DNA of 64,000 nt, taken from assembly GCF_014192335.1 (NCBI RefSeq), contig NZ_JACHXU010000013.1, positions 186,001-250,000 on the forward strand, given 5' to 3'. Under the pieces are notes generated by a model that saw nothing but the letters and a program-made list of their open reading frames with translations, had not been told where the DNA came from and ran no database searches. The stretch's first letter is position 1, and each line of letters begins with the position of its first letter. The translations under genes and the position numbers were made by a program. This document shows, piece after piece, positions 42,272-48,642 of the stretch. The stretch is from Aporhodopirellula rubra. GTDB lineage: Bacteria; Planctomycetota; Planctomycetia; Pirellulales; Pirellulaceae.

Positions 42272-43516
42272 TTAGAATTCCGCATCGATGACTTCTCGCG
42301 CGGCTCGTGTCCCGAGGCTTCCCCACAAACCGTAGGGGCTAGGCAGTCCCGGTCTTTGGGCAGCCCAGGTGATATTGAAGACCATTCCTGCGCGGGAGTC
42401 GCCCGCTTCGATCGAATCGGTCAAAAATCTCACCGCACCATCGCCCATCAAAACGTGCGCGCCACCTTGGTGCCGGCTCGACACACCTGCGATGCATCGT
42501 GTGTTGTATCCGTTCGATTGGATGCAGACCTCTCGGTTGGGCGGCAAGATCGTCATGACGGAACCATAGAACGGCATGTGCGACGCCCAGCGGTAGCCGC
42601 GGCCAGCGATGGCCGTGTTCCCGGTGTTGCCTGGCGCCCAGAATCGTGGTCGTTCTGGATCAATCAAACCGTTGTCGGCGCAGTAGCTTGGGTTTTGACG
42701 AATATGGTTGATGTGGGGGGAACCGGAAACGTTGGGGACTTTGGTGCGAACGTCTTCGTCGCCCAAGTCGGTAGCGATTTCACCCATGGCAATCGTGTTT
42801 GATAACCCATCGAGACAATCGCGGAAGGCTGTCCTTTGTCGAGGCATGAAGAATCCACGGCATGCGGCACGTGCATCTTCGGCGGCGCTTCGATCAAACG
42901 GTGAGACGTTCAAATAGGGACCGTAGTCCGACTGGACGGCCGAATCACCGATACAGGCGGCAAAGTTAGTTCGGCCTAACGCGGGTAATCCGAACCCCGG
43001 ATCACTGGGGCATCGGTACGCGACGATCTCAGTTGCCCATGGAATGTAGTTGATGTCTTGGGGCGTAGGGCCCATCGGGTTCCATGGATTGGCAATCGTT
43101 CCGATCGCCGCTCCTAAGTTGCCATCGGTTCGTTCTGCACTGGGATTGCTGATCTGTTCCCAAATCGCCTGTTGTTCAATGAACGGCAGGATTCCAACCA
43201 GCATGCTGAGGCTTTCACGACTCGCGGTCGTCGAGCTTCGCCACACCTGCGATGGGCCGTCGGCGACGTTCCCGGGTGGCTGCAAGAGTGGCATCGTCCC
43301 CGATCCGTGGGTCGGAAGCTGTTGGTAGCTGGAGTGATAATTGTGGATCGCCAACCCGATTTGCTTGAAGTTGTTGCTGCAACTCATGCGGCGAGCAGCC
43401 TCTCGCGCGGCCTGGACGGCGGGTAGCAACAGACCGACGAGGACGCCAATAATTGCAATGACCACAAGCAACTCCACCAACGTAAAGCCGCGCTGTTTTG
43501 GTTTAGACAAACGCAT
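42272..43516 (-). CDS. DUF1559 pseudopilin-like protein (3)
   Basis: 414 residues. The leader MRLSKPKQRG precedes [20 protein letters not shown] and [16 protein letters not shown]. The central YRCPSDPGFGLPALGRTNFA, FRDCLDGLSNTIAMGEI and C-terminal [20 protein letters not shown] match the paralogues at 38406 and 47094. AAGGAA lies about eight bases upstream of the ATG. It is followed by a small lipoprotein gene. Presumed exported pseudopilin-like protein. Confidence 0.92.
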   Translation of the reverse strand: MRLSKPKQRGFTLVELLVVIAIIGVLVGLLLPAVQAAREAARRMSCSNNFKQIGLAIHNYHSSYQQLPTHGSGTMPLLQPPGNVADGPSQVWRSSTTASRESLSMLVGILPFIEQQAIWEQISNPSAERTDGNLGAAIGTIANPWNPMGPTPQDINYIPWATEIVAYRCPSDPGFGLPALGRTNFAACIGDSAVQSDYGPYLNVSPFDRSAAEDARAACRGFFMPRQRTAFRDCLDGLSNTIAMGEIATDLGDEDVRTKVPNVSGSPHINHIRQNPSYCADNGLIDPERPRFWAPGNTGNTAIAGRGYRWASHMPFYGSVMTILPPNREVCIQSNGYNTRCIAGVSSRHQGGAHVLMGDGAVRFLTDSIEAGDSRAGMVFNITWAAQRPGLPSPYGLWGSLGTRAAREVIDAEF

Positions 43517-43949
43517 CAGAAGATTCCTTTTGAATAGAGAAAAAGTATTGGGATCGTGGTCGGAATTAACGATTGTTCGTTCCGAGCCATTCTCGGTTAA
43601 CAGATAAGGCCAACCCGTTAATGAGCGTTAGGCGGTCCTTGATCGGTGAATAGAGGTTCAATTGTAGGCCCACGCGTTCGTCGGGCTATCAGGTGAATAC
43701 AGGATAAGAGGGGGGCTTGAGGTGTGCCCCGTAGATATGCCCGCTAAAAAAGGCCCGCTGAAAGCGGGGCCAACCACGCGCAAGATTGGCGTGGGAAAGA
43801 TTGGGCAGCGGTTTTGGCACTGCGACGTTGCTCGACGTCGGGATACGTATCGCTGGCCGCAGCACGAAGGCATCCGGCCCGTCTGACACGAGTCGGCTTC
43901 ATCAGAGTTGATTGCCGGCAATGCGGAAGGATGCCTCGCACCGAGAGGC
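43517..43949 (-). other. Intergenic region with terminator
   Basis: 433 bases between the LuxR-type regulator and the third DUF1559 gene, both reading leftwards. It contains the intrinsic terminator at 43746-43771 and a second small hairpin CCACGC/GCGTGG at about 43773-43793. Confidence 0.55.
43746..43771 (-). terminator. Rho-independent terminator of the two-component operon
   Basis: On the minus strand GGCCCCGCT pairs with AGCGGGCC (one bulged base, 3-base loop), followed by six T residues. It lies about 180 bases past the stop of the LuxR-type regulator. Confidence 0.8.
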
Positions 43950-44603
43950 TCACCCTTGCTGATTGAGCAGCCCGAGTTGGTGTGCTTGATGAACGGCGCC
44001 GGGAGCATTGCTGACGCCTAGTTTCTCATAGATGTGAGCGATGTGAGTGTCGACGGTCGCGTATCGAATCCCGAGTTGATTGGCGATTTCCTTTTTAACC
44101 AACCCCTGAGCCAGCAGTCCGAGGACCTCCAACTCACGCTGCGTGAGTATTTCGTTGTCCGCTGTTTGACGGTTAGAACGCAACGCATCGAGCAGGTATT
44201 TGGCAACGCTTTTGTCGATGGTCGCGTCACCGCGCATCACGGCGAGGATTCCCTCGGTGATCTCGTCGAGCGTCACGGTCTTGAGCAGATAGCCTGCGGC
44301 GCCGAGAGTGATCGCCCGCACGACATCTTGCGGTTTGTCCGACTGCGTTAGGATGATGACTTTCGATTCGGGAATGTTGGTAAGGATCTTTTTCAAAGCC
44401 GCGAGGCCATCCATTCCTGGGAGTCGAAGATCTAGCAAGATCACGTCGGGCCGAGACCGTGCGTCGGCGCTGACAAGTGTGCGAATCGCAATCTCCGCGG
44501 TTCCGAATTGGCTGGCCAGAAAGATGTTGGGGTGATCCTCCAACGCAATCCGAACGACCTCGCGGTATTCCGGATTGTCCTCAACTAGCATCACGTTGAT
44601 CAT
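43950..44603 (-). CDS. NarL/FixJ-type response regulator
   Basis: 217 residues from the ATG at 44603; upstream in-frame codons lie inside the kinase gene region. The receiver domain has MLVEDNPEYREV, phospho-acceptor Asp in VILLDLRLPGMDG, Thr in VIILTQSD and Lys in GYLLKTVT. The C-terminal LuxR HTH is clear (LTQRELEVLGLLAQGLVKKEIANQLGI, then TVDTHIAHIYEKLGV). It is 17 bases downstream of the discoidin-type sensor kinase, its likely partner, and is followed by an intrinsic terminator. Confidence 0.93.
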   Translation of the reverse strand: MINVMLVEDNPEYREVVRIALEDHPNIFLASQFGTAEIAIRTLVSADARSRPDVILLDLRLPGMDGLAALKKILTNIPESKVIILTQSDKPQDVVRAITLGAAGYLLKTVTLDEITEGILAVMRGDATIDKSVAKYLLDALRSNRQTADNEILTQRELEVLGLLAQGLVKKEIANQLGIRYATVDTHIAHIYEKLGVSNAPGAVHQAHQLGLLNQQG

Positions 44604-44620
44604 GTTTGTAGCGATTCGAT

Positions 44621-45979
44621 TTACGTTGGCTTTTTGTGGGGATGCCAGTGCGAGATGCCTCGCGGACGTAACTGCAACGTGATTCGCGTTCCCTGGTTGT
44701 CGAGATCCTCGGCTGCGACGTGGGCACCCAAGAATCGAGCACGACGGTTCAGGGATTTGGGAACGCGGCTGCCGATTGTATCTGCGAGGCCGCGTCCGTT
44801 GTCCGTCACGGTCAGGCGGACGTTGTTGCGCTCGGCGACTAATTGCGTCGACGCTTGTGTGGCATTGGAATGCTGAAGGATGTTCGCGAGGCATTCTTTG
44901 TAGAACAGAAACAGATCGATCCGATTGCGATGTGACAGCGACTCGAGGTGCTCTTCGCCGGTGATCGTAATCTCATGGTGTAGGTCGGCCATCATACGTT
45001 CAGAAGTCCTGCGCATGTCGTGCACGAGATTCTCGAACAGCCCATTGGATTCCAACAGGTTCGAGCAGTAGCGGGCCGCCGCTCCGCTGCGCCGAGACAG
45101 GTCGCGAATGCGTTGCAGGAGATCAGCGAGTTTTTCAGGTGAGGCTCGATTCGAATGCGCGATATCGGCCAGCAGACTGAGTGCATGCAGATTGGCACCC
45201 AACTCATCATGAACATCCGCCGCGATTTGTTCACGAGTATTGTTGATCGCACGCCGGCGTCGCACATGGCCGATTAAGAAAACGGCGAGCGTTCCCAGTG
45301 CGAGCACGGCAACGAGCCAGAGCAAACGCCGGATGACGTTGGATTGTTGGTTGTAGCGGCCGTTCAGTTCCGCAACGATCAGAGGGCGTTCGGTTTCGAA
45401 TTCATGTCGTTGAGACAGTTCTCGCAGCCATTGTTTGATCGGTAGGATTTGACCATAGATATTGTTCCCGTCCGTCAGCGATTCGATTCCTCGGGCGAAT
45501 CCGAATACGTGGAAGTTCGCCTCGAACGGTCGGTGTCGAGCGACATTGACGCCATCACTGAATAGCTCAATTTCTGCGAAACCGATGACTCGAGTCGTTT
45601 CGTTTTCGGCGTCGCGTGAATCGAGGTTGAGGCACGTCAACCGCACGTAACGACATTCGCGTTTGGGGAAACGCTGCATGACGATCGGACCCGTATCGAG
45701 TTCCGATTTACTCGAATAATCGATCAACACCACCGCGTCTGAAAAATCACTCTGGAGTGCGCCTTCGACGATGATTTGTCCGGGCACGGCGAAACTTTCC
45801 GGGGCACTCGCGGGGATCGTGTCGCTGAAATCAGTTGCATGAAAGTGAATCCGTTCCAGCTCAAAGGCCCGTCCGAGATCGACGGACAGGACGGGAGCTT
45901 TGATGTCTTCGTCGTTGCTGACTTTGCTCACGAACGCGATGCTTTGTTCACCTCCGAATCCGTTCATGAGGTACGGCAT
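44621..45979 (-). CDS. Sensor histidine kinase, C-terminal piece after an in-frame stop
   Basis: 452 residues if started at the ATG at 45979, but the same frame continues upstream for 24 codons to a TAA at 46052-46054 and then on into the gene at 46052-46657. The visible part has a discoidin-like sensory domain (about 1-145), a membrane span (about 219-238), a HisKA_3-type helix with phospho-acceptor H257 (IAADVHDELGANLHALSLL) and an HATPase with VTDNGRGL. The start at 45979 falls inside a discoidin domain and leaves no signal peptide, so this piece is probably not made as a proper sensor. Partner: the LuxR-type regulator 17 bases downstream. Confidence 0.8.
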   Translation of the reverse strand: MPYLMNGFGGEQSIAFVSKVSNDEDIKAPVLSVDLGRAFELERIHFHATDFSDTIPASAPESFAVPGQIIVEGALQSDFSDAVVLIDYSSKSELDTGPIVMQRFPKRECRYVRLTCLNLDSRDAENETTRVIGFAEIELFSDGVNVARHRPFEANFHVFGFARGIESLTDGNNIYGQILPIKQWLRELSQRHEFETERPLIVAELNGRYNQQSNVIRRLLWLVAVLALGTLAVFLIGHVRRRRAINNTREQIAADVHDELGANLHALSLLADIAHSNRASPEKLADLLQRIRDLSRRSGAAARYCSNLLESNGLFENLVHDMRRTSERMMADLHHEITITGEEHLESLSHRNRIDLFLFYKECLANILQHSNATQASTQLVAERNNVRLTVTDNGRGLADTIGSRVPKSLNRRARFLGAHVAAEDLDNQGTRITLQLRPRGISHWHPHKKPT

Positions 45980-46051
45980 GAAGCCGTCAACAAGATATTG
46001 TTGCTTTCGAGGACCCTGAGCCCATTCGTCGCTCGATGACGCCTCGACCTG

Positions 46052-46657
46052 TTAATTCAACGCAACGTTTTCCGAGTTCGAAAATACCAGTAGTTCAGCG
46101 AGTTGCAGTGAGTACAGCCCGTCCCACGCACGCGGAGTCAACTCGGTCGCAACCAAGCGTATCCAAGATGCCTTTTGAGGTTCGATATCAACGACGACGG
46201 GTGCGATTCGCGGGAGCAGCTGGTCGTCGGCGTCGTATTGAGCGACGACGTGTCCGCTCTCGTCGTCGTCGGTTCCCACGAGGATGTGAAATGCGACCGG
46301 AAATCCATCGGCCCGAAATCCAAACGTCTTGTTTCGCCAGATCGCGGGAACCAAGACGATTTGGTCGATTTGCTCTTCTGCTTCGAATCGAATCGTCACC
46401 TCGACTGACTGATCAGGCACCGGCGAAGTTCGCGAGCGATAGCCGATCGCGCCAACGCCGCTCCGCATGTTCGGTTGAGCTAACATCTGCAGGCATGCGT
46501 CAATGTTCGCGAGCCGATCTTCGAGTTGCTGCAGGCTCATCGATTGATGCAAAGTCTTTTGCATCACGGTCTCGGCGACGAGGGAGGATCCCCCAACGCC
46601 TACCAGCCATAGCAGCGCGAGCGTGTGTGCTAATCGGGCGGGACAGTGTGCAGCCAA
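46052..46657 (-). CDS. Sensor histidine kinase, N-terminal piece before an in-frame stop
   Basis: 201 residues. A signal peptide (LALLWLVGVGGSSLVAE) precedes a short helical part and a discoidin/F5-8-like domain (VEVTIRFEAEEQIDQIVLVPA to LQLAELLVFS). It ends at SENVALN followed by TAA. A comparable domain in the downstream piece continues through the equivalent point as DGVNVARHRPFEA, so the TAA sits where the chain should run on, and the codons after it read QVEASSDEW. The two pieces together would make one 678-residue extracytoplasmic sensor kinase. Confidence 0.75.
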   Translation of the reverse strand: MAAHCPARLAHTLALLWLVGVGGSSLVAETVMQKTLHQSMSLQQLEDRLANIDACLQMLAQPNMRSGVGAIGYRSRTSPVPDQSVEVTIRFEAEEQIDQIVLVPAIWRNKTFGFRADGFPVAFHILVGTDDDESGHVVAQYDADDQLLPRIAPVVVDIEPQKASWIRLVATELTPRAWDGLYSLQLAELLVFSNSENVALN

Positions 46658-47093: not shown

Positions 47094-48311
47094 TTAAAAG
47101 CTCTCTTCGATGACTTCTTTGGCACCGCGTGTGCCGAGGGCGCCCCAAAGACCGAAGGGTGATTCGCGTCCCGCGGCGAGTCCACCGGATGCGTTGGAGA
47201 CTTGAGCGCTGTTGCTGTTACCCGCTTCGATTGAATCGGTGATGAACTTGACCGCGCCGTCACCCATCAAGACGTGACAGCCACCTTGGTGCCGACTGCT
47301 CGGAGGGCAAACTCCCGCGGAGCTGTGGTCGCCCGACAAGCAGACTTCGCGGTTGGGTGGCAGGATCGTGTTCATGCCCGTGTACGCGATTCGTCCGAAT
47401 GCCCATTTGTAACCGCGACGGCGATCCGACTCGGAGTCATTGACGGTCACTTGTGAGCCCCAGAATTGGGGCCGCGTCGGATCGGTTCCGTCACAGGCCA
47501 ACGCGCCGTTTGGGCCGACCATGTCACGGCCGTCATCGTTCGTTCCGCCGGAGGCACCCCAGTGGGTTCGTTTGTCACGGTCGCCAAGGTCGGTTGTGAT
47601 TTCGCCGGCGGCAATGGTGTTCGAGAGACCGTCGAGAATGTCGCGGAACGACATGCTGGTGCGTGGTACGAAGAAACCGCGTTGGCCGTGGCGGACCGCG
47701 ATCGCGCGAGTGTTGTTGATTTGCTCGTTGTTATCGAGTGATCCCCAATCGCCCATATGTACGGAATCGCCGGCGCAATAGGCGTAGTTGGTTCGCCCGT
47801 CTGAAGGCAGCCCGGTACCGGGGTCGCTGGGGCAGCGAAGCGTTTGCAATTCAGTGATCCATGGTTCGTACGGAGTGCTGCCGTAGTTGCTTTGCGAACG
47901 CTTCGGGTTTGGCCCCATGGCTTGGAATGTCCCGCCCGTGATCGTCAACGGGTTACTGATCTGTTCCCAAACCGCTTGTTGTTCCATGAACGGGGTCAAG
48001 CCAACCAACCAGTTCAAATCGGAGCGGTTGAATCCGGTCCCGACGGCTTGGGATTCCGCGTCGCTTCTCGTCGGGTTGGTCGTTCCGCCTTGCGACGTTG
48101 GGCAGCGATCGTATGCGGAGTGATAGTTGTGAAGGGCCAAACCGATCTGTTTGAAGTTGTTGCTGCAGCTCATCCGTCGTGCGGCTTCGCGGGCGGCTTG
48201 GACTGCCGGGAGCAGCAGACCGACGAGGACTCCGATGATCGCGATGACGACGAGAAGTTCCACTAAAGTGAAGCCCCGGTTCCGTTTCGATGACGAGAAT
48301 GGGTTTGGCAT
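47094..48311 (-). CDS. DUF1559 pseudopilin-like protein (4)
   Basis: 405 residues from the ATG at 48311; an in-frame start at 48374 would give an unusually long leader. The leader MPNPFSSSKRNRG precedes [20 protein letters not shown] and [16 protein letters not shown]. It shares [37 protein letters not shown] and [20 protein letters not shown] with paralogues 2 and 3, so the three form a close subfamily. No lipoprotein gene follows directly. Confidence 0.91.
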   Translation of the reverse strand: MPNPFSSSKRNRGFTLVELLVVIAIIGVLVGLLLPAVQAAREAARRMSCSNNFKQIGLALHNYHSAYDRCPTSQGGTTNPTRSDAESQAVGTGFNRSDLNWLVGLTPFMEQQAVWEQISNPLTITGGTFQAMGPNPKRSQSNYGSTPYEPWITELQTLRCPSDPGTGLPSDGRTNYAYCAGDSVHMGDWGSLDNNEQINNTRAIAVRHGQRGFFVPRTSMSFRDILDGLSNTIAAGEITTDLGDRDKRTHWGASGGTNDDGRDMVGPNGALACDGTDPTRPQFWGSQVTVNDSESDRRRGYKWAFGRIAYTGMNTILPPNREVCLSGDHSSAGVCPPSSRHQGGCHVLMGDGAVKFITDSIEAGNSNSAQVSNASGGLAAGRESPFGLWGALGTRGAKEVIEESF

Positions 48312-48642
48312 GTCTGATGATGCTCCGGTAAGAAGACGGATCTTGCGGTTTGTTAAGGCGCGGAATGACCGCAATAAGGGGTGCTATAGTAATATTGGTG
48401 CGGGATATCGCATGTCGTCTGTTTAGTTGACGCGCAATCTGCGCCCTTGCCTGGGGAGGGGGGGAATGCGTTTTTGTCCAGGCGAACAACTTTTGTTCGC
48501 TCGGTGTTCAAGAAGCGGGGATGAGAAGATGGATTCCTGACGCTGAATCGTATAGATTGTCCAGGTTGCTTAACTGAGTGAGTTCGGCGTCGCCGACGGT
48601 TCGCTCAGAAGAGTCCCGCCTACCTTCCCGCCTGAATGCTGT
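48312..48642 (+). other. Divergent intergenic region
   Basis: 331 bases between the fourth DUF1559 gene and the cytochrome gene. It should contain both promoters; a G-run lies at about 48454-48466. No gene was seen. Confidence 0.4.

Follow-up and report, generated by a model that had tools for sequence, protein, structure and literature searches.

A sensor kinase gene of the marine planctomycete Aporhodopirellula rubra is interrupted by a single in-frame TAA, most probably through a recent nonsense mutation in one paralogous DesK-like (HisKA_3) membrane sensor kinase, a family of which other members are also damaged. The window, by which we mean the whole stretch of 64,000 nucleotides that was analyzed, contains one minus-strand frame (46657–44621) with 678 codons ahead of its final stop, and the TAA at 46052–46054 (codon index 201, zero-based) is the only stop inside it (table 1). 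This bears out the split described in a preliminary description of the sequence, as does the count of 24 open codons between the TAA and the next ATG at 45979. The residues which that description gave after the stop were mistaken: The sequence reads QVEASSSDEWAQG, with three Ser.

Table 1. Features of the interrupted sensor kinase gene and its neighbors in the window.
Feature	Position	Strand	Basis
Upstream piece (201 residues, closed by the TAA): TTG start, signal-like N-terminus, first discoidin-like domain	46052..46657	-	sequence; TTG at same aligned place in R. sallentina
Internal in-frame TAA; column is Gln in 19 of 30 homologues	46052..46054	-	sequence, alignment
24 open codons without ATG, GTG, or TTG; predicted opening of second discoidin-like domain	45980..46051	-	sequence; model strand 173–176 after stop position 172
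Downstream piece from first ATG: remaining second sensor domain, membrane helix, kinase, final stop	44621..45979	-	sequence
Hydrophobic stretch LLWLVAVLALGTLAVFLIG, probable membrane helix	45269..45325	-	by eye
HisKA_3 domain with phospho-acceptor His region	45068..45235	-	Pfam PF07730, E 2.4e-6
HATPase_c domain	44684..44920	-	Pfam PF02518, E 1.4e-4, under curated cut-off (22.7 vs 26.4 bits)
LuxR-type response regulator, open; 76–77% identical in R. sallentina	43950..44603	-	sequence, comparison
Terminator-like hairpin, then six T	43754..43768	-	sequence
DUF1559-like gene adjoining kinase–regulator pair; 90% identical to R. sallentina counterpart at same place over 198 residues	42272..43516	-	N-terminal motif
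Second DUF1559-like gene, upstream of kinase	47094..48374	-	sequence

Codon scores are coding-like on both sides of the TAA (0.18 for the 60 codons before it, 0.15 for the 24 after, and 0.30 for the 80 after), although this score discriminates weakly, the wrong-frame 99th percentile being 0.18 at 60 codons against a coding median of 0.23. A scan of 464 kb of the A. rubra genome for stops flanked within their frame by 80 open codons on either side placed the site third to fourth (tied) among 431 when ranked by the lowest of the three scores; with stricter cut-offs the scan returned no site from the genome stretches covered, the TAA included. Because the score is a weak separator, homology is the real evidence for a broken gene.

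Homologues were collected from 241 genomes of the family, using the part after the stop as the query (E 1e-40); 33 places in 15 genomes matched, and the kinase piece has four other matches in the A. rubra genome. Single frames of 666–780 codons without inner stops account for 27 of these places, the other six being the window copy, the copy of Rhodopirellula sallentina SM41, a shorter frame of 566 codons (G177), two pieces in G010, and a fragment in G152. A copy of 664 codons from an Akkermansiaceae MAG brings the full-length homologues to 28, and all are single frames (664–780 codons) that run continuously through the stop site. A premature stop thus stands where homologues are continuous, as in a nonsense pseudogene. 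A natural organization as two genes, which the preliminary description had named as a possible refutation if homologues existed as two proteins with the same boundary, was ruled out: The 28 full-length homologues are single frames, and the R. sallentina copy is frameshifted within the same linker.

The column of the stop was read from an alignment of the window sequence with 30 homologues (the 28 full-length ones, G177, and R. sallentina). A residue is always present (30/30): Gln in 19, Cys in four, Arg, Lys, and Gly in two each, and Glu in one. None of the 30 has a stop at the aligned position. The TAA falls within the motif N-V-A-L-x-Q-x-V-x-x-S-S, unbroken in the homologues, so the earlier view that the stop breaks a continuous motif holds. 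A one-base origin had also been suggested there, with AAA (Lys) as the example; Lys is the less favored ancestor (2/30), compared with Gln (19/30).

The domain assignments agree with a sensor kinase. The window piece matches HisKA_3 (PF07730) with 28.4 bits, over the cut-off of 24; this domain is found in 29 of 29 aligned members and HATPase_c in 25 of 29 (E 0.01), and the H-box and ATP-binding residues are among the positions that do not vary across the 29 aligned rows, the window protein being one of these rows. The label "discoidin" given to the sensor domains in the preliminary description is upheld for the family, with 22 of the 29 aligned members matching F5/8 type C (PF00754) in Pfam. 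The window protein itself has no such match at E 0.01, and the upstream piece alone no Pfam family match at E 1, so for this copy the name is borrowed from its homologues and should be read as putative. Together with an alignment of 28 homologues, the read-through sequence without its first 30 residues was used to model a fold (mean pLDDT 81, pTM 0.60). The model shows beta-rich domains, and the stop (model residue 172) is predicted to lie just before the first strand (173–176, a short one) of the second discoidin-like sensor domain. Among the best 50 Foldseek matches, DesK–DesR complexes occupy ranks 1–25 and tandem CBM32 structures ranks 26, 28, 30, and 33; for the latter, structural scores across the two discoidin-like domains are low (TM 0.15/0.23).

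Uninterrupted, the protein would be a sensor kinase that carries two successive discoidin-like (F5/8 type C) domains on the outside and has the LuxR-type regulator as its partner. A nonsense change at this point, immediately ahead of the second sensor domain's first strand, would truncate the product after 201 residues and leave a short exported first domain; the anchored kinase would no longer be made, a useful downstream product would presumably be absent, and the regulator would be left without its partner. The frame probably starts at the TTG at 46657, since this codon is conserved in both the window and R. sallentina. The ATG at codon 12 of R. sallentina is ACG in the window (46622–46624). 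A lost start codon (ATG to ACG) was considered as a second lesion and dropped: With the upstream TTG retained in both copies, the ACG is not counted.

Apart from its stop the gene has barely decayed, with one disablement in 678 codons and no second stop. Compared with R. sallentina, dN/dS is about 0.19 for the first piece, 0.11 for the second domain and membrane part, and 0.10 for the kinase part, with 0.10 for the regulator; since dS is saturated (1.6–2.2), these ratios are rough and mostly reflect the time before the loss. The same procedure was applied to five pairs of intact members as a control, and the pair from the same two genomes (L041/L042) gave about 0.14, 0.10, and 0.06 with a dS of 0.35–0.57. 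Of 147 conserved columns, the window copy deviates from the family at 12, sharing 9 of these deviations with R. sallentina (between 0 and 32 deviations occur in each of the other 29 rows); unshared changes number three in the window and none in R. sallentina. No rate excess was seen in the window copy, either in the end branches of the tree (0.28 each for window and R. sallentina) or in relative-rate counts with seven outgroups (34/36, 33/38, 36/36, 35/33, 38/25, 39/31, and 33/28). In neutral simulations (400 runs per step), the probability of no new stop together with three or fewer changed conserved columns was 0.32 at 1%, 0.06 at 2%, and 0.003 at 3% divergence. By this simulation, the loss of the window copy dates to within about 2–3% neutral divergence.

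So little decay means either that the loss is recent or that the stop is an error, and it counts to some extent against a recent loss that a wrong base call fits the same data. If the TAA were a base-call or assembly error, the gene would be an intact sensor kinase, and the remainder of it does look functional, with its single disablement, kept catalytic positions, equal branches, and open regulator. A single wrong base that makes a stop should, however, be rare in an assembly of 75 contigs with 99.98% completeness. It should be noted that the low decay is explained equally well by such an error, which we disfavor because of this prior only; we regard it as unlikely, though the least unlikely of the alternatives, and take the stop to be probably real in the cell. 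Of the three options offered in the preliminary description, recent loss therefore fits best, a sequencing error keeps this minor share, and genuine readthrough, discussed below, found no support.

The nearest relative of the window copy is that of R. sallentina (L034), 72–73% identical and its sister in the tree (support 100/100). It adjoins the same regulator and the same DUF1559-like gene; upstream the two differ, R. sallentina having a frame that by eye resembles aldo-keto reductases and the window a DUF1559-like gene. The R. sallentina copy is broken too: Roughly 18 codons beyond the window stop site, an A4 run has one base too many, and this frameshift may be a homopolymer error. A shared ancestral break was ruled out, as each copy is intact at the lesion site of the other: R. 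sallentina has Gln at the position of the stop, and the window is continuous at the frameshift. That the two nearest relatives are broken so close together by different lesions speaks against a simple recent loss; for random decay it is a mild coincidence (about 6%, a rough estimate). In the same two genomes, the window cassette (42272–46657 against L034) has a dS of 1.4–2.2 and the L041/L042 cassette one of about 0.35–0.67. The window cassette thus diverged well before the other, simple orthology of the two broken copies is open to doubt, and the contrast suggests different histories or exchange.

The paired lesions could also point to a tolerated split, with a secreted first domain and an internally started kinase piece, perhaps signaling without sensor input, and the R. 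sallentina frameshift as a second, convergent case. The conserved downstream piece (dN/dS of about 0.10) is in keeping with this, as is the in-frame loss of most of the second domain in G177; the regulator frame of G177 is also short, however, so that this system may itself be decaying. A product begun at 45979, the first ATG after the start-free codons, would lie inside the second sensor domain and lack its beginning, with neither a signal peptide nor an evident ribosome site. The lesions moreover differ and share no boundary, and one of them is the possible homopolymer error. We consider such a split improbable.

Genuine readthrough of the TAA, with frameshifting in R. sallentina, would yield a minor full-length sensor. 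The frame past the stop is conserved and CAG follows the stop; a CA start after a stop codon recalls leaky contexts. Against this, the stop itself is unconserved, with a residue at its column in every homologue, and the stop that a readthrough gene should keep among its relatives, along with a conserved extension, is seen in 0 of the 30. Three RNA folds gave nothing notable as a recoding signal, with no unusual structure after the stop (z −0.85) or around the R. sallentina shift (z −0.22), and no slippery motif fitting the needed shift was seen in the R. sallentina sequence (by eye). Readthrough is therefore very unlikely. A broader form of these ideas would make the opening of the second domain a repeated place of separation in this branch (a stop here, a frameshift in the sister), giving an exported carbohydrate-binding-type domain and a kinase running without it, either by convergent fission or by recoding that doses the full-length sensor. 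We give this little credence; functional lesions in both copies would make this a rare example of a sensor split convergently.

The recent nonsense mutation, our preferred reading, becomes less surprising in view of the turnover that looks common in this DesK-like kinase family, with damage also in G010, G152, and G177. The G010 gene (L040 and L045 / L125) is divided over two contigs, its halves lying at the end of one and the start of the other, and directly past HDELGA of the kinase H-box its frame diverges, perhaps through an insertion or because the assembly is broken there. The G152 copy is a fragment. In G177 (L063 / L124; 566 codons), most of the second sensor domain is lost in frame, and the regulator frame has only 144 codons. 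The Akkermansiaceae MAG (L035:4001–7417) carries two kinases of the family, one on each strand, that flank a regulator.

The regulator and terminator had been described as intact. For the regulator this stands: Its frame is open, and a regulator frame adjoins 29 of the 30 homologues. The hairpin and T6 are present downstream, but the region has 4 terminator-like sites, no more than shuffled sequence (mean 4.3). The gene beyond (42272–43516) belongs to a family that we take to be DUF1559 from its N-terminal motif. DUF1559-like frames with a pseudopilin-type N-terminus were found in the surrounding stretch, mostly about 13 kb, of 21 of 30 homologous kinase genes, a count whose rows are related and hence nonindependent and which excludes the window (which has them), L035, and the G152 fragment; among the nine genes without such a frame, L117 and L062 have short flanks. 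L035 gave no DUF1559 match within the 9.3 kb examined, and the G152 locus has a frame with the same N-terminal motif. In 400 kb of A. rubra, in stretches that were hand-chosen and include kinases of this family, six DUF1559-like frames occur, three beside such kinases and three away from them.

A recent nonsense mutation would mean little beyond this genome, other than to show turnover in an expanded planctomycete sensor kinase family. A more useful lead is the proximity of these kinases to DUF1559-like genes, as the function and control of DUF1559 appear unsettled in the literature surveyed. One paper there mentions both DUF1559 and histidine kinases; it gives 74 DUF1559 genes for R. baltica, nine of them up-regulated in cold and salt shock (PMC2754498).

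Among known systems, the gene most resembles DesK-like (HisKA_3 / HPK7) kinases with LuxR-type regulators, in its HisKA_3 domain, its structural matches to DesK–DesR, and its adjoining regulator. It differs from them in the large outer part of the members described here, where a partial third repeat accompanies the two discoidin-like domains, and in the stop that interrupts the window copy. The outer part resembles F5/8 type C (discoidin, CBM32-like) domains through the Pfam matches of most members and the tandem CBM32 structures, whereas the window protein itself falls short of a match and its structural scores over the two domains are low. With ordinary nonsense pseudogenes it shares a lone premature stop in a gene that relatives keep intact, but unlike them the window copy has barely decayed further.
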